A stretch of DNA of 50,357 nt from Gallionella sp. (GTDB lineage: Bacteria; Pseudomonadota; Gammaproteobacteria; Burkholderiales; Gallionellaceae). This document shows, one piece after another, positions 6,369 to 16,681 of this stretch (positions within the stretch are counted from its first letter, which is position 1; every line of letters starts with the position of its first letter). The position numbers and the translations under genes were made by a program. The stretch lies in contig JAHEDW010000007.1 in NCBI GenBank assembly GCA_024641025.1, forward strand, positions 1-50,357, read 5' to 3'. A model generated the notes under the pieces. That model ran no database searches, was not told the origin of the DNA, and saw nothing but the letters and a program-made list of their open reading frames with translations.

Positions 6369-7142
6369 TTATTTGGCCGGTCCGCCCAAGGTCTTTTCGA
6401 CATATAGCCGCATCAGGTCGATCGGCATCGGGAACACCACGGTCGAATTGTTGTTCGCGCCTATCACCGTCAGCGTTTCCAGGTAACGCAGTTGGATCGC
6501 CTGCGGTTCCTGTGCCAGTACCTGAGCTGCCTGCAGCAGTTTCTCCGACGCCTGCAATTCGCCTTCGGCATGGATCACCTTTGCGCGGCGTTCACGTTCT
6601 GCCTCGGCTTGCCGCGCGATCGCCCGCACCATGGTCTCGTCGATATCCACATGTTTGATCTCGACATTCGACACCTTGATACCCCATGCATCGGTCTGGC
6701 TATCGAGCACCTTCTGGATGTCGATGTTGAGCCGTTCACGTTCGGCGAGCATGTCGTCCAGTTCGTGTTTGCCCAGCACCGAGCGCAATGTGGTTTGTGC
6801 CAACTGGCTGGTCGCTGAAAGAAAGTCCTCTACCTGGATGATCGCTTTCTCCGGATCCACCACGCGGAAATACACCACCGCATTGACCTTGACCGAAACG
6901 TTGTCCCGCGATATCACGTCCTGACTGGGCACATCCATCACCACCGTGCGCAATCCCACCTTGACCATCTGCTGGATGCCAGGCAACACGATCACCAAAC
7001 CCGGGCCTTTGACTTTCCAGAATCGCCCGAGCATGAATACCACGCCGCGATCGTACTCGCGCAGGATGCGAAAGCTGGAGAACACCAGCAGCACCAATGC
7101 AAACATGAAAAAACCGAAACCAAAATTGATATTGAAGAGCAT
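6369..7142 (-). CDS. Slipin / stomatin-like SPFH-domain membrane protein
   Basis: A 257-residue stomatin-family (slipin) protein: an N-terminal hydrophobic hairpin-like segment (residues 3-22), then an SPFH/band-7 domain starting at [14 protein letters not shown], with the conserved [18 protein letters not shown] and [15 protein letters not shown] blocks, and a C-terminal helical part rich in [16 protein letters not shown]. Stomatins form oligomeric membrane microdomain scaffolds. The start at 7142 has an excellent ribosome site (AAGGAGAACGAT); the longer frame from 7169 does not. It lies 56 bases after the NfeD gene, the classical nfeD-stomatin pair in which the NfeD protease cleaves the stomatin partner in Pyrococcus (PH1510/PH1511). 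Confidence 0.93.
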
Positions 7143-7198
7143 ATCGTTCTCCTTAATTGTTAAGGCCAATGAAAGCAGAATTACTTATTACATATTTC

Positions 7199-8590
7199 TT
7201 ATTGCTTGTACTCTGCTAGTGGCTCCACATCGAAGACCAGCCCGTCCATACGCACCACCCTGATCTTTTGTCCCCGGCTTAACGGCTGTCGGCTTTTGAT
7301 GCGCCAGTTTTCGCCATGCACACGCGCCCAACCGTCCTTGCCATCAAAGTTTTCCAGTACTTCCCCGACGCTTCCTACCAATTCTTCGCTGCCGCTTACC
7401 ACCGGCTGCTTGCGCGCTTTGAGTGCCAAGCCGCCCACGAAGAAGATGAACAACGCGCTGGTGATGCCAACCGGCACGATCACAGACCAAGGAATCCCAT
7501 ACCCCGGAATATCAGTATCGATCAGCATAACCGAACCGATCATGAAGGCGATAACTCCACCGATACCAACCACCCCGAAGCTGGGGATGAACACCTCGGC
7601 GATCATGAAGGCGATTCCCAGGATGATCAGGCCAAGACCCGCATAGCTGACCGGCAACATCTGCAGTGCGTATAGCGCGAGCAACAGCGAGATCGCGCCG
7701 ACTACGCCTGGCAACACGAAACCCGGATTGGAAAATTCGAAGAACAGGCCAAACATGCCGGCCAATAACAGCATGTAGGCGATGCTCGGGTCCGCGATTG
7801 CCGACAGCAGACGGCTGCGCCAATCAGGCTCGAGTGTCACGATACGCGCATCTTTTAATTCCAGCATGCGCACCACGCCCAGTACATTCACCATGCGCCC
7901 GTCGAGTTTACTGAGCAACTCGGGCACATCGCGCGCGATCACGTCAATGACCTTCACCTTCAGCGCCTCGTCAGCGGACAGGCTTACCGCCTCGCGCACC
8001 GCCTGCTCGGCCCATTCGATATTGCGGCCGCGCATCTGCGCCAGACTGCGGATATATGCGGAGGCATCATTGATCTGCTTGTGTTGTAGCGCTGAATTTG
8101 GAGCGGGCATCTTGTCGCTAAATGGCCCCTTGTCTTTGCCGCCGTCCTGATCGGGTTGTTTATCAGATTCCGGCTGCCCGCCGATGCCGCCGATGCCGAT
8201 ATTGACCGGTGTGGCAGCGCCCAGATTGGTAGCAGGGGCCATCGCGGCGATATGGCTGGCGTAGAGGATATAGGTTCCGGCACTTGCAGCGCGGGCGCCT
8301 TCGGGTGCGACGAATGCGGCAACAGGCACAGGCGAAGCGATGATCTGCTTGATGACCTGGCGCATCGACGTATCCAGCCCACCCGGTGTGTCCATCTTCA
8401 GCACCACCAATTGGGCCTGGTCGTCGGCCGCTGATTTCAGGCCGCGCACAACATAGTCTGCGGATCCCGGACTTATCGCGCCATTGACGCTGAGGACCAC
8501 CACCGTGGGTTCCGACGCTGCCGCGCTGCCCAACCAGCCAAATAACAGAAGGCCTGAAAGAAAAGCGCGAATGATGGAAAGGCGTTCCAT
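7199..8590 (-). CDS. nfeD: Long-form NfeD membrane serine protease
   Basis: About 463 residues. A signal peptide (residues 1-25) is followed by a ClpP-like serine protease domain with the nucleophile in ARAASAGTY (Ser103) and the LKMDTPGGLD block. Four to five membrane segments follow (roughly residues 270-400) and then a C-terminal OB-fold NfeD domain (GSVGEVLENFDGKDGWARVHGENWR). This is the long NfeD form known from PH1510-N, a Ser/Lys-dyad protease. The gene precedes the stomatin gene in an apparent two-gene unit. The start at 8590 puts the signal peptide at the very N-terminus; the longer frame from 8635 would add 15 residues without benefit. Confidence 0.92.
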   Translation of the reverse strand: MERLSIIRAFLSGLLLFGWLGSAAASEPTVVVLSVNGAISPGSADYVVRGLKSAADDQAQLVVLKMDTPGGLDTSMRQVIKQIIASPVPVAAFVAPEGARAASAGTYILYASHIAAMAPATNLGAATPVNIGIGGIGGQPESDKQPDQDGGKDKGPFSDKMPAPNSALQHKQINDASAYIRSLAQMRGRNIEWAEQAVREAVSLSADEALKVKVIDVIARDVPELLSKLDGRMVNVLGVVRMLELKDARIVTLEPDWRSRLLSAIADPSIAYMLLLAGMFGLFFEFSNPGFVLPGVVGAISLLLALYALQMLPVSYAGLGLIILGIAFMIAEVFIPSFGVVGIGGVIAFMIGSVMLIDTDIPGYGIPWSVIVPVGITSALFIFFVGGLALKARKQPVVSGSEELVGSVGEVLENFDGKDGWARVHGENWRIKSRQPLSRGQKIRVVRMDGLVFDVEPLAEYKQ

Positions 8591-8691
8591 AATCACCACT
8601 ATAGGCGTTTCAGTTTTATCTGCAAGCTTACGCATGATCCGCCGGGCGGACAGATAAAGTTTAGACTGATCTCTTCCGATCAGTGCAGTTA

Positions 8692-10263
8692 TTAACGTCT
8701 CCCGGCCAGTTCAGCCCTTTCAACGATCACTCGATACAGATCCAGATCGGCCTGTTTGTAAGCCCGCACGCCGGGGAGCTGAAGCTGGGCGCGCTGCCCG
8801 GACGAAAGTTTAGCTGTGACCAGCAGGGGATCGCTTTGCTGGTCCGGTTGCCGGGTCTCCGCGTTGATATGAACTATGCGAACATACACATTGGTGACAG
8901 TCACACTGGTTGGGTTGTATACCACTGCATAGATATATCCCATGTTGTCGGCCTGGGCAGCAGCCTGCAGGAACTTTGCTGGATTGCTAGCGATCTCCAG
9001 ACGCTGGTAGCGCGCCTTCGCCAACTTTCCGGAATCGGATTCTGAATCGGCGGCAACCTGGTACTGCTGTATCGCAGTTTTGAAATCGCCTCGTCCTTCC
9101 GCGATCTGGCCCAGCACATAATAACTGGTCGCGGTGGGCAACAACTCATTGCTGCGCTTGAGAAAGGTTTCTGCTTCCTTCGAACGCCCCAGGCTGTTCA
9201 GCACGACACCGCTCTGCACATACGGCCTGAAATAATCCGGCTGCAATCTGATCGCTTGCTGGTAATTGCCCAGTGCATCCTCGTTTCGGTTCTGCTTCAT
9301 CGCGATGTCGCCGAGCAGTTCCTGGAAGCGCGCCTCGCGGGGCTCGCCTGCATTGGCCACCTTTGCCAATGTCGTAGCTTTGTCGACATCGCCCTTGGCA
9401 AGTGCCTGCACGCCATCGTCATATGCCTTGTAGGCAGGCTGTGTTGCTTTCAACTTGCCCACCTTCTGTGCATAGATTTCCTTACCCAATATGCCGCCTT
9501 CACCGAGTTGAGCCAAGGTTGCCTTATTCGCGGCAACGCGTTCAGCCGAGGGCGGGTGGCTGGCGAACAAACCCTCGAGGAAACTTGAATTTCGATCCTT
9601 GCTCAGGCGCACGAATGTTTCCTGCAGCGTCACTGCGGCACGCGGGTCATAACCAGCTTTCTTCATGTAACGCATGCCGTACAGATCGGCTTCCGATTCA
9701 TCGTCGCGGCTATATTTTTTTGATATGAGTTGTGTGCTCAATTGCGCGCCACCCACGATCAGATCAGCATATTTGTTATCCTGTGCAGCAATACCTGTTG
9801 CCATCACTGCGCCCTGTAGCAGCAAACCTGTTTCCATGCTTTGTGCGCCGTGCCGTGCCGCAGCATGGACGATCTCATGGCTTAGAACAGCGGCAAGCTC
9901 GGCTTCGCTATTCAGCTCGTAAAGCAGGCCACGATTGAACGCGATTTTTCCACCGGGCATCGCCCAAGCGTTCGGGACGGAATTGTTCAACACCACAAAT
10001 TCATACGGCAATTGCCGATCAGATACCGCCGCGAGCTTTTTCCCCACACTCTGTACATAAGCAGTCAGATCAGGATCGATGTCGTAATCACCGCCCTGTT
10101 GCTGGCGTGCAGGAACATAGTTCTTCTGGCCGATGGAAACTTCCTCGGATTCTGAAACTAGTTGAAGCTCGCGTTTGTGCGTAACCGGATTGGTGCCGCA
10201 ACCGGCCAACGAAAATATCATCACTGCGGCAGCAAACTTGCAGGTGTAGGATTTCAGCATCAT
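8692..10263 (-). CDS. M48-family metalloprotease lipoprotein with TPR repeats (BepA-like)
   Basis: A 523-residue periplasmic lipoprotein protease. The signal sequence ends in the lipobox LAGC (Cys22). The zinc site is HEIVH at residues 129-133, with the downstream glutamate in SEADLYGMRYM. The C-terminal half holds TPR repeats (for example EDALGNYQQAIRLQPDYFRPYVQSG, cut here by family pattern). The layout matches BepA/YfgC, which degrades or assists outer-membrane proteins such as LptD. The ATG at 10263 follows AAGGAACGA, a good ribosome site, and gives a proper signal peptide; the frame opens earlier at 10320. It lies about 100 bases upstream of NfeD on the same strand, so the envelope-quality genes may be co-transcribed. 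Confidence 0.92.
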   Translation of the reverse strand: MMLKSYTCKFAAAVMIFSLAGCGTNPVTHKRELQLVSESEEVSIGQKNYVPARQQQGGDYDIDPDLTAYVQSVGKKLAAVSDRQLPYEFVVLNNSVPNAWAMPGGKIAFNRGLLYELNSEAELAAVLSHEIVHAAARHGAQSMETGLLLQGAVMATGIAAQDNKYADLIVGGAQLSTQLISKKYSRDDESEADLYGMRYMKKAGYDPRAAVTLQETFVRLSKDRNSSFLEGLFASHPPSAERVAANKATLAQLGEGGILGKEIYAQKVGKLKATQPAYKAYDDGVQALAKGDVDKATTLAKVANAGEPREARFQELLGDIAMKQNRNEDALGNYQQAIRLQPDYFRPYVQSGVVLNSLGRSKEAETFLKRSNELLPTATSYYVLGQIAEGRGDFKTAIQQYQVAADSESDSGKLAKARYQRLEIASNPAKFLQAAAQADNMGYIYAVVYNPTSVTVTNVYVRIVHINAETRQPDQQSDPLLVTAKLSSGQRAQLQLPGVRAYKQADLDLYRVIVERAELAGRR

Positions 10264-10497
10264 TCGTTCCTTGTAATAGGAGTCAGTACAGCGAATCATT
10301 TTAACAGGAGTATGGGGCATCCTGCCCCTGCATGAATGTTACGATGGGCACCTGTCAGGGCACATAGTTCCCGATCCTGAACCTCGCAAGACAACCGGCA
10401 GCAGGATGAGTAAGCCGAATTGATTTATATAGTGCCCACTCGCCAACGCATTGAATCTGGGATATTTGGTGTAGGGATTTCAAAGGATAGCGTCGAA

Positions 10498-11241
10498 ATG
10501 AAAGTAGCTGTTCTGTCCGACATTCACAGCAACCTGGAGGCGCTGCACGCCTGCCTCGCCCATGCCCGCTCTAAAGGAGCGGAGCAATATGTCTTTCTTG
10601 GCGACCTGCTGGGCTACGGTGCGGATCCAAAAGCATGCCTGGAGATCATCGCACCAATGGTGAGCGCCGGCGCCCTTGCGGTGATGGGCAATCATGACGA
10701 AGCAGTACTTGGCGGCTTTTGCGAGAACCTGGCGTTCGCAGCACGCGATGCGATCTACTGGACCCGGGAACAGTTGGGACAACCAGAGCGCGATTTTCTC
10801 AAGACCTTGCCGATGGTGTCGCGCAAGGACAATGCATTCTATGTCCATGCCAGTGCCGTTGCTCCCGAGCGCTGGACTTATATCGACAATGTGGTTACCG
10901 CAGCGAAATGCATGAAGGCATCCGGGTCACAACTGACCTTTGTCGGTCATGTTCATCATCAGACGTTGTATTACACCGCCGGCGGTGGTGCTGCGCAGGT
11001 TTTTATTCCGGTTGCCGGTGTTGAGATTCCGGTTACGCAGCACCGACAGTGGCTTGCTATCGTGGGGTCGGTCGGGCAGCAACGAGACGGGAGTCCGCCT
11101 GCCGCGTACCTGCTTCACGATCAGCACCGCGAATCCCTGACTTATTTTCGGGTGCCGTATGATTATTTGAGTGCCGCCGGCAAGATCCGTGCTGCCGGCT
11201 TGCCTGAAAGGTTTGCCCTCAGACTGGAGAAAGGGAGCTGA
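10498..11241 (+). CDS. Calcineurin-like metallophosphoesterase
   Basis: A 247-residue metallophosphatase. Metal-binding motifs in order are SDIHSN (residues 7-12), GDLLGYG, GNHDEA, and the C-terminal GHVHHQ. The protein belongs to the YfcE/MJ0936-like clan whose members hydrolyse phosphodiesters or phosphoproteins. The start at 10498 follows AAAGGATA and removes a 26-residue non-conserved extension. Its stop codon lies four bases before the start of the Ser/Thr kinase gene, so the two are almost certainly one transcript. This suggests, but does not prove, that the phosphatase opposes the kinase. Confidence 0.9.
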   Translation: MKVAVLSDIHSNLEALHACLAHARSKGAEQYVFLGDLLGYGADPKACLEIIAPMVSAGALAVMGNHDEAVLGGFCENLAFAARDAIYWTREQLGQPERDFLKTLPMVSRKDNAFYVHASAVAPERWTYIDNVVTAAKCMKASGSQLTFVGHVHHQTLYYTAGGGAAQVFIPVAGVEIPVTQHRQWLAIVGSVGQQRDGSPPAAYLLHDQHRESLTYFRVPYDYLSAAGKIRAAGLPERFALRLEKGS

Positions 11242-11245
11242 TCTT

Positions 11246-12643
11246 ATGGAGCTGACGAATCTGCAACCCGGCATCGAGGTCGACAGTTTCCATGTCGGCG
11301 AGAAGATCCACGAAGGCGGCATGGCCGTGCTTTATCGCGTGGAGCGTCAAGGCGGCGAGTTTCCGATGTTGATGAAGGTGCCGCGGATGGAATTCGGCAG
11401 CCATCCCAGTTGTTATGTCGGCTTCGAGGTCGAGCAGATGATCCTCGGTAAACTGACCGGCATGCACGTGCCGCGCTGGGTGGCCAGCGGCACCTTTGAA
11501 GACACGCCCTACCTAGTGATGGAATATGTCGAGGGCAGATCGCTGCACGAATATGCCGATCATGCCCCGTTGCCGGCAGATCAGGCAGCGCATCTGGTCG
11601 CGGCGCTGGCGACTGCAGTGCATGACCTGCACCGGCAGGAGGTGATCCATCTGGATATCAAGCCCGCTAACGTGCTTTACCGGGCGGGCGGGGAGGTGGT
11701 GCTGGTCGATTTTGGTTTGGCGCGCCATTTCCATTGGCCCGATCTGGTGGAAGAAGCGTTCCACAAGCCGGTGGGGAGCTCCGCGTATATTTCGCCGGAG
11801 CAGATCATTGGCAATCGCGACAACCCGCGCAGTGATCTGTTTGCAATCGGGGTGATCCTTTATCAGCTTTGCACTGGGCGGTTGCCGTTCGGCGAACCTA
11901 CCAGCCTGAGCGGATTCCGCCTCCGGCTGTTCCTAGACCCACTGCCGCCGCGGCACTGGGTGCCCGACTTGCCGGCCTGGATGCAGGAGATCATCCTGCA
12001 TTGCCTAGAGGTCGATGCGGAAAATCGCTATGCGACTGCAGCTCAGCTCGCCTTCGATCTTGCCCACCCGGATCAGGTGCCGCTCACCGAGCGGGCAACC
12101 CGGCTCAAGCGTTCCGGGCTGTCGAGCATCATCCGGCGTTGGTGGCAGAGCTTGCGCACCGAGCAGCGTAAACATGAAGTCCCAACCACACATCTCGCGC
12201 AGGCGCCACAGATCCTGGTTGCGCTTGATCCGGGTGTCGGTCAGGAAGCATTGCTGCGGGCAATTCTGGCTGCAGTGCGCCGTGCCGCTGCGGCGGACGA
12301 CAATTGCAGGATCATGTGCGTGACGGTGCTCGAGCCGGACATCTCCACCGATCAGGAGACCGGTCACGAGCTGGTTAACAGCCTTTATACCCAGCGACTG
12401 GTGGAACTGCATCACTGGGCTGCCGAACTTCAGTTACCGCAATATCGCTTGCGCTTCCACGTGCTGGAAGGGGCGAACGCCGCTACTGTGCTGCTCGATT
12501 ACGCACGCCAGAATCATGTGGACCAAATCATCATGGGCGCACGCGGCAGATCCGGCCTGCGTCGGATACTGGGCAGTGTATCCGCGCGGGTGGTTGCCGA
12601 GGCACGCTGCACAGTGACCGTGGTGCATGCACCCAGTGCTTAA
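11246..12643 (+). CDS. Ser/Thr protein kinase fused to a universal stress protein domain
   Basis: A 465-residue soluble fusion. Residues 13-280 are a Hanks-type kinase: glycine loop GEKIHEGGMAV, lysine 44 in MLMKVP, catalytic HLDIKPANVL (residues 135-144), DFGLAR (155-160) and the SPEQ activation-segment end. All key residues are present, so it should be active. Residues about 315-465 form a UspA-like domain with an ATP-binding-type GARGRSGLRRILGSVSARV loop (G-x2-G-x9-GS). There is no transmembrane segment, unlike PknB. The start at 11246 is preferred because of AAAGGGAG ahead of it. It is coupled to the phosphatase gene and is followed, after 310 bases, by the YeiH-type transporter gene. Confidence 0.93.
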   Translation: MELTNLQPGIEVDSFHVGEKIHEGGMAVLYRVERQGGEFPMLMKVPRMEFGSHPSCYVGFEVEQMILGKLTGMHVPRWVASGTFEDTPYLVMEYVEGRSLHEYADHAPLPADQAAHLVAALATAVHDLHRQEVIHLDIKPANVLYRAGGEVVLVDFGLARHFHWPDLVEEAFHKPVGSSAYISPEQIIGNRDNPRSDLFAIGVILYQLCTGRLPFGEPTSLSGFRLRLFLDPLPPRHWVPDLPAWMQEIILHCLEVDAENRYATAAQLAFDLAHPDQVPLTERATRLKRSGLSSIIRRWWQSLRTEQRKHEVPTTHLAQAPQILVALDPGVGQEALLRAILAAVRRAAAADDNCRIMCVTVLEPDISTDQETGHELVNSLYTQRLVELHHWAAELQLPQYRLRFHVLEGANAATVLLDYARQNHVDQIIMGARGRSGLRRILGSVSARVVAEARCTVTVVHAPSA

Positions 12644-12953
12644 CGAACGTGATTGATTTTAATATTAAAGTTTCCTCATAAACTAATGTGATTGACTGAA
12701 CTTAAAGCACCATGATAGAAATATTATTAGATCAGCAAAAATAAATGGAATATTTCCGCCTGCTGTTACGTCTACTTGAGGATTACTAACATCAGGTTGA
12801 ATCTGTGGTTCGGTGCGGACGTGGATGAATTCCGGCAGCAATAGGAGCAAATAGAGGAGGTTTTACCAACGAATCAACTGAAATCCGGTAACTAGGCTCG
12901 CTGTAGAGGGCTATGCTCGTAATCATTAAGTAGTACTTTAAAGGGGGAACGTA
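12644..12953. other. Intergenic region before the YeiH-type transporter gene
   Basis: This AT-rich stretch probably carries the transporter promoter. The only clear element is the ribosome site GGGGGAA at 12943-12949. A second Shine-Dalgarno-like GAGGAGG lies at 12855-12861 but is not followed by a start codon. No hairpin with a T-run and no RNA gene was seen. Confidence 0.45.
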
Positions 12954-14708
12954 ATGATCTATACAGTAAAGTCATCAGCACTACTGATCATCGGCATAGT
13001 CATGCTGGCATGGGCAGGTCTTAATAGTTCAGGCGCAGTCGACGGCATGCAGTCCTACCTGCTGGCTAGCGACTACAAAGACCACGTCAAGGTCATGAAA
13101 AAATACGATGCGCAAGTGAAAGAGGCTACCGAAAAGGCAGCGGCGGCAGGTCAACCCGCGCCGGAAATGAAAATGCCCGCCTCGAAATTCGACCACTCCA
13201 AGGCGACCCAGTCCAAGATGTCGAATTATTTTGGCATAGCCTTTGTTCTGATCGGGCTGTTCACGCTGGTATGGAAACCCAAGCCGGGCAATCTCGACTA
13301 CCTTATCTCGGTCGTGCCCGGGATCGCATACATCCTGCTGATCGCCTTTATTGTCAGATGGGGACTTGATCCGATCTTCGGCAACTGGGGCAAGGCGGCA
13401 GAGCCGGCGCTGGGCTGGAATTTCGCCAAAATATTCAACCTGAACTATGTCGTGATTGGTATCGTGATCGGCATCGTCGTTGTCAATGTGTTCAAGATAC
13501 CGGCATGGGCAGCCAACGGCGTGCGCACCGCGCGCTTCTTCCTCAAGACCGGCGTGATATTGCTGGGCACCCTTTACAGCGCGGCTGAACTCGCGCAACT
13601 GGGCGCACTTTCCGTGGTCATGATCGGCATCTTCGTGCTGGGCTCCGTTTGGATGGTGCTTTACATGGGCAAGCGCATGGGGACACCCAATTCCATGACG
13701 GCGGTGCTTTCGGCCGGCATGGGCGTGTGCGGTGTTTCCGCCACCGTGGCGGCCGCGCCGGTGGTTCAGGCCAAGGCCGAAGAGATCGCCTACACTATCG
13801 GGACCATCCTGATCTGGGGCGTAGGTTGCATGTTCGTGTTCCCTACCATCGGCCACCTGCTGAATATGGGCCCGGTGCAATTCGGCGCCTGGGCCGGCAC
13901 GGGTATCCTGAATTCGGCGCAGGTTGCCGGCGCAGCCTTGGCATTCGATCCGCACAACATCGAAACGCTCAAGGTGGCAGAGATCTTCAATATCACCCGC
14001 GTGCTGTTCCTGCCTATCATCGTGTTGTGGCTGGCTGCCTGGTATGTCAAGCATGAAGAGGGTGCGGAGAAAGTCAACCTCACACAAGTACTCGTCGCCA
14101 AGTTCCCGGTATTCGTGCTGGGCTTCATCGCAATGTTTGCCTTGAGCTCCATGGGCGTGTTCGCGCCGGCCGGGCACTATAAAGGCAAATACTTCAGCAG
14201 CACCGAGATCAAGGAAGACAAGCTGCTCAAGAGCGATGAGACAAGTGCCGTGCAGGGTGAACTGAACCGGCTCCGCGGCGCAGAAGGATCGCAGGCGCTG
14301 AGCAAGTACCTGACCGAAAGCCACGTCACACTCGGCAAGCGCAATGTGACATCGGAAGATGTCTACACGGCGTTGACCGAGCTGGCCGCCAACAAGAAGA
14401 TCATGACGCGCGAAGAGGATAGTGTCCTTGAATCGCTGGCCAAGATGGACGGTATCGACAAGGCGGCCAAGGAGGCCATCAGCAACGCGCACCATGCGGC
14501 CTACCATACCTCCAAGTCCATCAAGGCGTACCGCAACTGGATCGCATGGCTGTTCGCCTTCGGCCTGATCGGATTGGGCATGCAGATCACCGGCAAGGCA
14601 CTCAAGCAGGCTGGCGGCGCTCCGCTGGTCATCGGCGGCGTGGTAGGCACTGTGAAAGCCATCGGCTCGCTGATCGTGGTGATGCTGTTCGTCAAAGAAT
14701 TCATTTAA
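12954..14708 (+). CDS. Enlarged YeiH-family putative sulphate exporter
   Basis: A 584-residue polytopic membrane protein of the YeiH family (PF03601, putative sulphate exporter). The core blocks VRTARFFLKTGVILLGTLYS and the glycine-rich SAGMGVCGVSATVAAAPVVQ are diagnostic of the family. Typical members have about 350 residues. This one has two additions: a charged N-terminal segment between the first membrane helix and the core (residues 31-82), and a hydrophilic, mostly helical insert of about 120 residues (roughly 400-523) ahead of the last two membrane helices. It follows the kinase-USP gene and precedes a 40-residue membrane peptide. Transport substrate is unproven for the whole family. 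Confidence 0.88.
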   Translation: MIYTVKSSALLIIGIVMLAWAGLNSSGAVDGMQSYLLASDYKDHVKVMKKYDAQVKEATEKAAAAGQPAPEMKMPASKFDHSKATQSKMSNYFGIAFVLIGLFTLVWKPKPGNLDYLISVVPGIAYILLIAFIVRWGLDPIFGNWGKAAEPALGWNFAKIFNLNYVVIGIVIGIVVVNVFKIPAWAANGVRTARFFLKTGVILLGTLYSAAELAQLGALSVVMIGIFVLGSVWMVLYMGKRMGTPNSMTAVLSAGMGVCGVSATVAAAPVVQAKAEEIAYTIGTILIWGVGCMFVFPTIGHLLNMGPVQFGAWAGTGILNSAQVAGAALAFDPHNIETLKVAEIFNITRVLFLPIIVLWLAAWYVKHEEGAEKVNLTQVLVAKFPVFVLGFIAMFALSSMGVFAPAGHYKGKYFSSTEIKEDKLLKSDETSAVQGELNRLRGAEGSQALSKYLTESHVTLGKRNVTSEDVYTALTELAANKKIMTREEDSVLESLAKMDGIDKAAKEAISNAHHAAYHTSKSIKAYRNWIAWLFAFGLIGLGMQITGKALKQAGGAPLVIGGVVGTVKAIGSLIVVMLFVKEFI

Positions 14709-14721
14709 GAGGAGAGCAATC

Positions 14722-14844
14722 ATGGCAGAACAAAAATTCGAACGTGGCACCAGCCTGTCTATCTTTGTCAGCGACCGCAGGGAAGACATCACTGCGCTGA
14801 TTTTTGCTTTCGTCATCGCATTTGGCGTATTGCTCACGACCTGA
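14722..14844 (+). CDS. Small 40-residue single-span membrane protein
   Basis: A 40-codon frame from ATG 14722 to TGA 14844, too short for ordinary ORF cut-offs. It begins 13 bases after the transporter stop and has a strong ribosome site (AAGAGGAGAG). The first 22 residues are charged and hydrophilic (MAEQKFERG... SDRREDI) and the last 18 form one membrane helix (ALIFAFVIAFGVLL). A strong terminator follows at once. The position and signals argue for a real small subunit or regulator of the transporter, as known for other transporters with small accessory proteins (for example KdpF, MgtS), although no homology is claimed. Confidence 0.75.
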   Translation: MAEQKFERGTSLSIFVSDRREDITALIFAFVIAFGVLLTT

Positions 14845-14858
14845 GGCAGTTAAACCTA

Positions 14859-14900
14859 GCGCGGGCACCTTGTAACAGCAGGGTGCCCGCGCGTTTTTTT
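14859..14900 (+). terminator. Rho-independent terminator after the transporter unit
   Basis: A perfect 11-base-pair GC-rich stem (14859-14869 with 14882-14892) with a 12-base loop is followed by one G and seven T residues (14894-14900). It ends the transporter plus small-peptide transcript. The next gene starts 12 bases later and so needs its own promoter or read-through. Confidence 0.9.
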
Positions 14901-14911
14901 GGCGCTTGAAC

Positions 14912-15382
14912 ATGAAAAATCTGAAATCGATATTGCTGGCGCATCATGGCACGCCGGGTGCGTTGCTGGCCGAGGCGCTGGCGCTTGAAACGGCTGTAGC
15001 TGGACAGACGCAGATCGTGCATCTGCTGGTCGTACCAGATTTTTGGGAAGGCATGCAGGGCGACGACTGGCTGAATAACGCCTCGACCCGCGATACCTTC
15101 GGCAGCTATGTCGAAGGCCTGCTCGAGGCGGACGTCAAACAACAGTTGCGCGCACTGGAAGGTCGCTGTGCCGAACGTGGTTTCGCCTACAAGCCGGTGA
15201 TGCGCCAAGGAGACCCGGCGCAGTGCCTGCTGGAGACGGCAGTGCAGGAGGATGTCTCGATGGTGGTGATCGGCCCGCCGCGTCCCAAGGGCGTGCCCGG
15301 TTATCGTTCGCGCATGGATATCGAAAAGCTTGCGCGCGGCCTGCATGTGCCGCTGCTGATGGCGGCGCGGGCTGCTTCATGA
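14912..15382 (+). CDS. UspA-like universal stress protein
   Basis: A 156-residue single-domain universal stress protein: an N-terminal KSILLAHHGTPGALLAEALAL strand-helix, a middle acidic region, and C-terminal VSMVVIGPPRPKG... KLARGLHVPLLMA. The usual G-x2-G-x9-G(S/T) ATP loop is altered (GPPRPKGVPGYRS), so nucleotide binding is uncertain. The start is ATG 14912, immediately after the terminator T-run; a TTG two codons earlier is possible. Its stop overlaps the ATG of the next gene (ATGA), implying translational coupling with the SRPBCC-like membrane protein. Confidence 0.85.
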   Translation: MKNLKSILLAHHGTPGALLAEALALETAVAGQTQIVHLLVVPDFWEGMQGDDWLNNASTRDTFGSYVEGLLEADVKQQLRALEGRCAERGFAYKPVMRQGDPAQCLLETAVQEDVSMVVIGPPRPKGVPGYRSRMDIEKLARGLHVPLLMAARAAS

Positions 15383-16026
15383 TGCAGGATGCGGCCGCGC
15401 AGGCCGGCGAGGATGCTGCTTGGATCAGCGTGGAGTTGCCGCTGTCGCAGCGCGATGCCTATGCATTCATCCAGCAAACCGAGCTGCTATTCAGGCTCAA
15501 TCCTTATCTTGCGATCAAATCCTGGCAGGAGGATGCACCCGGCAGGATCTATCTGGGCAAGAAGATCCATCTCGATGCATTGAACGAGATGAACGGCATG
15601 CAGCAGACGATGACGCTGAGCGTGACTGATGTTCAGCCAGATGGGTCATATGCATTGGGTTACGACAAGGGGCTCAAGCAGGGCAGTTTTTTCACTGTGG
15701 AATCCATTACCCCGGATACGTGCCGACTGACTCTGAAGGATCGTTATCCGGCCGAGATCAGCGTGGCCGAGCGCGAAGCACGCCTGAACGAAGTGGACAG
15801 GTCGCTGATACCCTGGGGCGCGGCGATACACGGCTACTTCAAGCGGCGCAAGTACTGGGGATGGCTGCCCTTATACAACAGGTTTCAGGATTCATTTTGG
15901 TTTGGCATGGTGCCGCGGCACCGCCGCATTGCACGGCTGCTGGTCTGGATCACCGTGCTGGAATTCGTGGTGTTTCTGTTTGTATTCGTCATATACTGGC
16001 TTGAACTGGCGCGCGGAAAAATCTAA
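15379..16026 (+). CDS. SRPBCC-like protein with C-terminal membrane anchor
   Basis: About 215 residues. The N-terminal 180 residues have the alternation expected of an SRPBCC (START-like) lipid- or ligand-binding fold (WISVELPLSQRDAYAFIQQ at the start, PDTCRLTLKDRYPAEIS later). Residues about 188-210 form a single membrane helix (LLVWITVLEFVVFLFVFVIYW). The soluble domain probably faces the cytoplasm. A longer frame opens at 15223 but would run inside the universal-stress gene; the ATGA overlap at 15379 is the natural start. I assign the fold with moderate confidence and no function. Confidence 0.75.
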   Translation: MMQDAAAQAGEDAAWISVELPLSQRDAYAFIQQTELLFRLNPYLAIKSWQEDAPGRIYLGKKIHLDALNEMNGMQQTMTLSVTDVQPDGSYALGYDKGLKQGSFFTVESITPDTCRLTLKDRYPAEISVAEREARLNEVDRSLIPWGAAIHGYFKRRKYWGWLPLYNRFQDSFWFGMVPRHRRIARLLVWITVLEFVVFLFVFVIYWLELARGKI

Positions 16027-16061
16027 AAGATCGACCTAGCCGCCGGCCATGTTATCGTTCC

Positions 16062-16084
16062 TGCGGCAGCGCGCTGCTGCCGCA
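16062..16084. repeat. Perfect 9-bp inverted repeat between the SRPBCC-like gene and the rhomboid gene
   Basis: The stem 16062-16070 pairs perfectly with 16076-16084, leaving a five-base loop. It is GC-rich but lacks a following T-run, so it is not a classical intrinsic terminator. It could halt decay, slow transcription, or act as a protein-binding palindrome. Confidence 0.6.
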
Positions 16085-16108
16085 ACAATGAAGATAGGTT
16101 AACTAACG

Positions 16109-16681
16109 ATGACCCCTGCCGTAAAAAGTATCCTGATCGTCACCGTCGTGAGCTTCATGCTGCAGGGTGTCGGCGGCGGCCAGATGATTACCAATTTTGC
16201 GCTGTGGCCGATGACCGGCTCATTCATGCCTTGGCAACTGGTGAGCTATGCATTCCTACACGGCAACTTGATGCACCTTGCCTTTAACATGTACGGCCTG
16301 TGGATGTTCGGCCAGGAACTGGAACTCCTGCTGGGACGCAGGGTGTTCTTGCATCTTTATTTCGCCAGCGTCCTGGCGGCAGGCATCATGCAGGTGCTGG
16401 TCACCACCTTCACCGGCGGCATGTATCCCACCGTGGGCGCATCAGGCGGGGTTTTCGGGATATTGCTCGCCTATGCAATGTATTTTCCGAATCGGGTCAT
16501 CATGTTGATACTACCCCCGGTAGCCATGCGGGCACGGACATTTGTGTTTGTCTACGCAGCCATTGAACTTTTTCTCGGTGTGACCGGAACGCAAGCTGGT
16601 GTGGCACATTTTGCTCACCTTGGTGGCATGATCGGCGCTTATCTGATTCTTAGCTTCAGGGGTCGGAGTCGTTGGCGTTGA
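16109..16681 (+). CDS. Rhomboid-family intramembrane serine protease
   Basis: A 190-residue membrane protein with six helices. It shows HGNLMHLAFNMYGLWMFG (the H-x3-H-x3-N block in helix 2), the nucleophile in GASGGVFGILLAY, and the catalytic histidine in AHLGGMIGAYLI. All catalytic residues are present and the length fits the compact bacterial rhomboid type. Substrates cannot be predicted. It follows the SRPBCC-like gene after 82 bases that contain an inverted repeat. The next frame starts close to its stop codon on the same strand. Confidence 0.93.
   Translation: MTPAVKSILIVTVVSFMLQGVGGGQMITNFALWPMTGSFMPWQLVSYAFLHGNLMHLAFNMYGLWMFGQELELLLGRRVFLHLYFASVLAAGIMQVLVTTFTGGMYPTVGASGGVFGILLAYAMYFPNRVIMLILPPVAMRARTFVFVYAAIELFLGVTGTQAGVAHFAHLGGMIGAYLILSFRGRSRWR

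Follow-up and report, generated by a model that had tools for sequence, protein, structure and literature searches.

Conservation of an enlarged YeiH-like transporter and three small partner genes in sulfur-oxidizing proteobacteria

Gene organization of the locus

The stretch of DNA analysed here, hereafter the window, comprises 50,357 nucleotides of a Gallionella sp. contig (JAHEDW010000007.1). According to its open reading frame and Pfam annotation, it contains, at positions 10498–16026, six genes that follow one another on the + strand around an enlarged YeiH-like transporter. Four of these genes constitute the core with which this work is mainly concerned. The transporter, a protein of 584 aa (12954..14708; PF03601, 167.3 bits), contains two additional regions, namely an N-terminal extension formed by residues 1–109 (12954..13280), in which a charged loop accompanies two further hydrophobic segments, and an insert of 105 residues, 413–517 (14190..14504). 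It is followed by the gene of a 40-aa, single-helix micropeptide (14722..14844) and by an intrinsic-terminator-like hairpin (14859..14892), in which 15 pairs precede a T7 run and which separates the two halves of the core. Beyond the hairpin, a divergent UspA-like protein (14912..15382) and an SRPBCC-like protein with a C-terminal membrane helix (15379..16026) are encoded, the start of the latter lying inside the Usp stop (ATGATG at 15379). Upstream of the transporter, an optional unit is formed by a calcineurin-like metallophosphatase of 247 aa (10498..11241; PF12850, 54.6 bits) and its kinase partner, a Hanks-type Ser/Thr kinase with a C-terminal Usp domain (kinase-Usp; 465 aa, 11246..12643; PF00069, 119.6 bits, and PF00582, 71.4 bits), which starts four bases past the metallophosphatase stop.

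An earlier note on this DNA, made from its letters, had described the six co-directional genes, the four-base gap, the 584-residue YeiH-like protein, the 40-residue peptide, the terminator and the Usp overlap, and the annotation found every one of them where the note had placed it. The note also stated that no description of the set as a system was known to its author, and a literature search found no published description of it, most subscription journals and bioRxiv being outside the scope of that search.

Conservation of the core beyond Gallionella

The protein search with the transporter scored 8000 candidates and found 2217 relatives among them. The 120 relatives listed share 70–92 % identity with the query (the window's own protein excluded), and measure 543–603 aa; those that are named include Gallionella, Sulfuricella, Sulfuritalea, Sulfurisoma and Chromatiaceae. 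From 211 relatives in named genomes the best 80 were taken as the set of loci, in which partners were located by tblastn together with clustered gene calls; these calls were codon-scored, and their starts may be off by some residues. Loci are called testable when they are not cut short at a contig end. Judging by the record titles, the 80 loci span Beta-, Gamma- and Alphaproteobacteria as well as Magnetococcales.

Throughout this range, the transporter retains the same companions. The micropeptide gene lies 3′ of the transporter in 77 of the 78 testable loci, the Usp gene in 75 of 77 (in L107 as a 56-residue piece that tblastn alone detected) and the SRPBCC-like gene in 71 of 76, so that all three partners are present in 71 of all 80 loci. 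A single uncut locus, L101, shows neither micropeptide nor Usp nor SRPBCC-like gene, while Usp and SRPBCC-like gene were not found in L096, and the SRPBCC-like gene was not found in L065, L067 and L107 at the detection limit used. Moreover, the proteins diverge together, with correlations of pairwise distances (between pairs that are not independent) of 0.86 for transporter and Usp, 0.83 for transporter and SRPBCC-like protein, 0.86 for Usp and SRPBCC-like protein, and 0.78 for transporter and micropeptide.

The association was also followed in a sample of 399 genomes of the order, in which the long transporter (threshold E≤1e-100) occurs in 12. A profile search for the SRPBCC-like family (E≤1e-8, with at most seven candidates scored per genome) likewise returned 12 genomes, namely 11 of the 12 long-transporter carriers and genome G344, which contains another form of the transporter (see below). 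In all 11 carriers the SRPBCC-like match lies within ~1.5 kb of the long-transporter match; in the twelfth, G377, the transporter is cut by a contig edge and no SRPBCC-like match was obtained. Thus, every SRPBCC-like protein found in the 399-genome sample was encoded beside a YeiH-type transporter.

These counts bear directly on the suspicion that the neighbourhood is a matter of chance or peculiar to one strain. The long form was found in 0 of the 36 other genomes of the window's genus, several of them incomplete, which speaks for such an accident; however, 71 of 76 testable loci, drawn from four proteobacterial groups, contain the SRPBCC-like gene, and this result, together with the block counts over the 80 loci, refutes it and leaves it a negligible probability. 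The search for co-occurrence that the earlier note had proposed therefore has a divided outcome: the core extends well beyond the genus, while within it the long form is scarce. Three of the 36 genomes (G004, G026 and G031) have the short transporter form described below, and two contigs titled Gallionella sp. (L031 and L066) carry the long form. This patchy spread within the genus suggests horizontal transfer.

Anatomy and types of the transporter

With 167.3 bits against a gathering score of 24.5 for PF03601, the transporter belongs to the YeiH/putative sulfate exporter (PSE) family. Its two additional regions appear as gaps in shorter relatives: of the three that were aligned, two or more lack residues 2–21 and 32–109, and two or more lack the insert 413–517, which sits ahead of the last two hydrophobic segments; residues 43–83 are also absent from most gamma-type alignment rows. 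The C-terminus of YeiH has been stated to be periplasmic (PMC12880088; this and the other papers are cited from excerpts), and counting back the hydrophobic segments from there places both the insert and the N-terminal loop on the same side. Hydropathy, charge and homology thus indicate that the extension and the insert most likely face the periplasm. No solved structure matched the transporter profile at E 0.01. An ARAGORN call of a tRNA-Gly (TCC) at 13708–13783 (+), inside the transporter gene, is most likely false, and seven related loci give no such call.

Shorter relatives of ~380–400 aa, with 40–45 % identity to the long form, were found in L004–L008, L050 (7066–8232), L085 (13189–14382) and L139–L146. 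Behind these short forms, too, come a micropeptide-like gene and a Usp gene, whereas none of them has a convincing SRPBCC-like gene, the eight loci L139–L146 included; the one match in L143 covers 34 residues (E 0.004) and lies inside the transporter region. Short and long units occur together in L050 (7066–13060) and L085 (10001–15013), and neither unit shares its micropeptide-like gene or its Usp with the other. A third type is found in G344 (L147, 463–3517), where a Usp with the ATP motif, a micropeptide-like gene, a YeiH relative of 458 aa, a second Usp and an SRPBCC-like gene follow one another; by its coordinates the profile match of the SRPBCC-like gene stands directly behind the second Usp, although single-query tblastn gave none there. 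The triad of transporter, micropeptide and Usp therefore recurs in three transporter types. At 17 loci of distant YeiH relatives (L009–L022 and L026–L028), no micropeptide, Usp or SRPBCC-like match was found within flanks that reach at most 1.5 kb and are in some cases cut.

The three small partners

The micropeptide has no Pfam match. The motif RGxx(L/I)(S/T)(I/V)FxxDRxED is present in 77 of 77 relatives. The charged half of the protein should be cytoplasmic.

With 31.0 bits, the core Usp exceeds the PF00582 gathering score of 24, and a G(D/N)DW block occurs in 75 of 75 proteins. The ATP motif G-2x-G-8/9x-G(S/T) occurs in 0 of these 75, in contrast to 31 of the 34 Usp domains fused to the kinase, the one of the window reading GARG-8x-GS. 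Its place is taken in the core Usp by a basic loop of the kind G[PAS]PRxKGxxGLRSRM, which a loose pattern recognized in 67 of 75 proteins and which inspection by eye found as near variants in the other eight. The proposal of the earlier note that adenine nucleotide exerts control thus finds no backing in the motifs of the core Usp, even though a degenerate motif in a Usp does not exclude ATP binding (PMC3673472).

For the SRPBCC-like family, 1045 relatives were found. The label, which the earlier note had already used, is fair but not proven: 13 of the 43 alignment members match PF10604 at E≤1 (best 2.1e-5), while the window copy has no Pfam match, and PF10604 is annotated in 2 of the 120 listed relatives. 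One solved structure matched the family profile at E=1 and was taken as a chance match. All 43 proteins of the alignment carry a hydrophobic helix at the C-terminus, and in each of them the stretch before the helix is richer in K/R than that after it, so that the soluble domain should be cytoplasmic.

Transcription, upstream rhodanese and neighbouring genes

The hairpin at 14859–14892 is the best of 10 terminator-like sites, against 5.0 expected, and a promoter scan gave no sigma-70-type site in 10200–16200. In the 77 loci with a micropeptide, its start follows the last sense codon of the transporter by a median of 17 bases, and the Usp and SRPBCC-like genes overlap or lie at most 5 bases apart in 51 of 70 loci. 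Between these two halves the spacing varies, with a gap of at most 20 bases between micropeptide and Usp in 16 of 74 loci and a stable fold followed by T5 in 27 of 74. Since some loci have a short gap and others a fold with a T run, a terminator at this position is frequent but does not occur everywhere; the core is perhaps a single operon in some hosts and subject to partial read-through in others.

In 29 of 73 testable loci, a rhodanese is encoded directly upstream of the long transporter (e.g., L050, 9436–9888). PF00581 was found in four of the four tested, a signal peptide was judged present by eye, and a CxxGxCW motif occurs in 24 of the 29. Moreover, sox genes, recognized by eye from sequence starts, lie nearby in five loci. 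This context agrees with an importer that would supply the Dsr pathway in the cytoplasm with sulfane sulfur, sulfite or thiosulfate from the periplasm, the rhodanese and the predicted periplasmic additions of the transporter constituting the delivery side; the frequency of soxB in carrier genomes (given below) points the same way. However, no rhodanese was found at 44 of the 73 testable loci, and the studied YeiH proteins indicate sulfite resistance or export. Import is, therefore, regarded as unlikely, albeit as the strongest of the competing explanations.

Of 67 testable loci, six have a cluster with an ECF (extracytoplasmic function) sigma factor upstream of the transporter (one member tested with Pfam). 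These loci are of gamma type and do not have the kinase/phosphatase pair. The cluster is co-directional with the transporter in five of them and opposite in L086. In four (L088, 8484–9793; L102; L105; L109), a putative anti-sigma gene comes next, with a zf-HC2 match below the cut-off. In the window itself, a Rhomboid-family protein (16109–16681, +) is encoded directly 3′ of the core and co-directionally with it. On the other side of the six genes, an M48 peptidase with TPR repeats (8692–10320) comes after a region (6369–8635, −) with an NfeD-type protein, identified with Pfam, and an adjoining stomatin/SPFH-like protein, recognized by eye.

Association with dissimilatory sulfur oxidation

The presence of dsrA, aprA and soxB was determined in 50 of the 80 carrier genomes; these genomes were reached through the named loci and have no completeness value, so that absences in them are weak evidence. 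The dsrA gene exceeded the cut-off in 38 of the 50 and was present as fragments in six more (G067, G071, G082, G086, G091 and G101), while G078 and G100 gave mainly matches read as dsrB, and four (G061, G072, G092 and G109) gave no dsrA match. For aprA, 34 genomes were over the cut-off, eight had pieces, one a weak match and seven none. Finally, soxB exceeded the cut-off in 42 of the 50 carriers and also in the window's own genome, where dsrA and soxB are both located on contig C97.

In the sample of the order, dsrA (E≤1e-40) was found in 87 of 399 genomes; it is present in 10 of the 12 long-transporter carriers against 77 of the 387 other genomes (Fisher 7e-6, a value that, like the other p-values given here, is too small because related genomes are not independent). 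The short-form query showed the same tendency, matching 9 of the 77 dsrA-positive non-carriers and 0 of 77 dsrA-negative genomes (p 0.003, also too small for related genomes); eight of the nine matches have 73–80 % identity and that of G344 has 37 %. Through this association with dsrA, the core tracks dissimilatory sulfur oxidation.

A separable kinase/phosphatase pair

The earlier note had joined all six genes in one system, in which the transporter or its inserts would be controlled by phosphorylation and adenine nucleotide. One half of this claim is borne out by the conservation of the core around one transporter; the other half is not, as the kinase/phosphatase pair proved separable. Metallophosphatase and kinase-Usp were each found in the vicinity of the transporter at 32 of the 57 testable loci, all of them within L031–L081, and at four of these (L036, L045, L047 and L053) the pair is found downstream of the core instead of upstream. 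The pair is missing at the other 25 testable loci, and none of the 29 loci L082–L110, the group with 52–56 % identity, has it nearby, including the 16 of this group with 5 kb on both sides. In the order, the kinase-Usp (E≤1e-70) was found in 37 of 399 genomes. It is enriched in the long-transporter carriers, of which 6 of 12 have it, compared with 31 of the 387 non-carriers (Fisher 3e-4), although in one of the six, G220, it is encoded on a different contig than the transporter. The metallophosphatase adjoined the kinase-Usp in 15 of the 15 loci examined, out of 38 matches, and nine of these loci belong to genomes without the long transporter. Furthermore, the distance correlations (again between pairs that are not independent) reach 0.78 for kinase and phosphatase but 0.56 for transporter and kinase and 0.69 for transporter and phosphatase, below those of transporter, Usp and SRPBCC-like protein given above; the value for SRPBCC-like protein and phosphatase is also 0.78. 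The metallophosphatase and the kinase-Usp are therefore a stand-alone pair that lies beside the core in part of the betaproteobacteria, and the reading of the six genes as a single system is rejected, given that the pair occurs without the transporter, is missing at many core loci and is less congruent in its distances.

Some observations do favour a model along the lines of the earlier note, in which the adjacent kinase and phosphatase would switch the transporter by phosphorylation and adenine nucleotide would act on both Usp domains. The window kinase satisfies PF00069 and shows both the catalytic HLDIKPAN and the VDFGLA (HxD and DFG) motifs, the fused Usp domain generally keeps its ATP motif, and the kinase is, as shown above, commoner in carriers. 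The dispensability and looser fit of the pair, together with the lack of the ATP motif in the core Usp, argue in the opposite direction. Moreover, the additions of the transporter, which the earlier note had proposed as phosphorylation targets, are probably periplasmic and hence beyond the reach of a cytoplasmic kinase. Altogether, this model is considered improbable. Regarding the kinase itself, the Asn position of the catalytic loop is occupied by His in 19 and by Asn in 14 of the 34 relatives from L031–L081, with one unread; the window has Asn. The change from Asn to His is unusual for an active Hanks kinase.

Comparison with known systems

The core of the transporter and its sulfur-oxyanion context are shared with the YeiH/PSE family (TC 2.A.98, PF03601), including Salmonella YeiH, Hyphomicrobium Hden_0834 and Paracoccus SuyZ, whose studied members are associated with sulfite stress or thiosulfate induction. 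The window transporter differs in ~210 extra residues distributed in two blocks, in a score below the TIGR00698 cut-off, and in its dedicated micropeptide, Usp and SRPBCC-like partners, whereas a LysR-type regulator lies beside the Salmonella and Hyphomicrobium genes. The micropeptide recalls KdpF, the tiny single-helix subunit of KdpFABC that is encoded beside its transporter, but has a charged motif ahead of the helix, and to our knowledge the two have no motif in common. We also know of no micropeptide or SRPBCC-like partner of Rv2623/Rv1747 in Mycobacterium tuberculosis, a system in which a Usp acts on a membrane transporter. The ectoine transporter TeaABC of Halomonas elongata, another one linked to a Usp, is of the TRAP type, a different family from the YeiH-like proteins. 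Rv2623 has been shown to bind a transporter (PMC5549992), in this case the ABC transporter Rv1747 through an FHA domain, and TeaD has been proposed as a regulator of TeaABC (PMC5549992); here, the connection between Usp and transporter is one of genetic linkage. TeaD also binds ATP (PMC3673472), while the core Usp has the G(D/N)DW block and the conserved basic loop instead of the ATP motif. SoxT1A/SoxT1B and TauE likewise take part in the membrane traffic of sulfur compounds in sulfur oxidizers, but belong to other families (YeeE-like and TauE; PMC11582611).

A possible function in sulfur oxyanion export

DsrAB operating in reverse releases sulfite in the cytoplasm. Salmonella YeiH is needed for sulfite resistance (PMC12880088), and a yeiH-type gene, taken to encode a sulfite exporter, is the most thiosulfate-induced gene (526-fold) of Hyphomicrobium denitrificans (PMC11582611, PMC12423496). 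Against this background, the enlarged transporter, the micropeptide as a subunit, the Usp and the SRPBCC-like protein would work as a unit in DsrAB sulfur oxidizers. The transporter would most likely move sulfite, or a similar sulfur oxyanion, that arises from reverse Dsr activity from the cytoplasm to the periplasm, and its extra periplasmic loops would probably couple this port to periplasmic sulfur chemistry, as the rhodanese with a signal-like N-terminus encoded upstream in many relatives suggests. The micropeptide would be a subunit in the membrane, and its conserved motif on the cytoplasmic side could serve as a docking site for the Usp. The Usp and the SRPBCC-like protein, both predicted to be cytoplasmic, may gate transport in response to a ligand for which ATP is not the obvious candidate. 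Some of the betaproteobacteria may have a further input in the independent kinase/phosphatase pair. We give an even chance to the joint proposition that the four core genes are one functional unit around the transporter and that this unit exports sulfite or a similar oxyanion under the control of its dedicated cytoplasmic partners.

Several observations weigh against this export proposal, in addition to the non-independence of related genomes noted above. The transporter scores 88.4 bits against the TIGR00698 cut-off of 232.6 and is thus YeiH-like but outside the subfamily, so that the function of YeiH is carried over at a distance. Among the gene associations, the one with dsrA is the sole controlled one, the figures for soxB and aprA having no background rate. 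Conversely, 77 of the 87 dsrA-positive genomes are without the long form (9 of the 77 having the shorter or third form) and 68 of the 87 are without any transporter form at the thresholds used, which means that the long form is not required for the pathway. Two genomes of one genus, G051 and G385, carry the full core block without dsrA, and the carrier of L080 (G092) gave no match for dsrA or soxB and no more than a weak one for aprA. The window locus has no rhodanese, the nearest match in its genome having an E-value of 1.9e-6, and rhodanese and periplasmic loops suit import equally well. Finally, with 34 of the 50 carriers exceeding the cut-off for aprA, most of those tested can probably oxidize sulfite inside the cell, which lowers the need to export it.

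The same aprA count, together with the family name, putative sulfate exporter, could speak for the export of sulfate, with which the cytoplasmic Dsr–Apr–Sat route ends, in place of sulfite. Nevertheless, the sulfate reading of the family goes back to a single older case that later authors doubted (PMC11582611), and Salmonella YeiH acts against sulfite (PMC12880088). Sulfate export is accordingly judged quite unlikely, less so than the phosphorylation model by a hair and more so than import.

Beyond these alternatives, the export proposal can be extended to a multi-subunit transport machine of lithotrophic sulfur oxidizers, with a new micropeptide family, a membrane-tethered SRPBCC-like protein and a Usp in which the conserved basic loop would be a remodelled phosphate-binding loop. 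This Usp would be the intracellular sensor of sulfite, adenosine 5′-phosphosulfate (APS) or another sulfur oxyanion and would open or close the port. This extension is speculative and more probably wrong than right by a wide measure. If true, such a sensor would let toxic sulfite out only when the Apr/Sat route is saturated.

The conserved association of the transporter with its small partners suggests that sulfur compounds pass the membrane through a regulated gate of a kind not described before. The micropeptide represents a protein family to which no Pfam entry corresponds. Among the Usp proteins, a subgroup that has lost the ATP motif but stays with one transporter offers a tractable case for the study of Usp function. 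The block, which extends over several proteobacterial classes, is short and amenable to work in culturable hosts. Thus, for DsrAB-dependent sulfur oxidizers, in which the passage of sulfite, sulfate and sulfane sulfur across the membrane is poorly understood, this module provides a concrete candidate.

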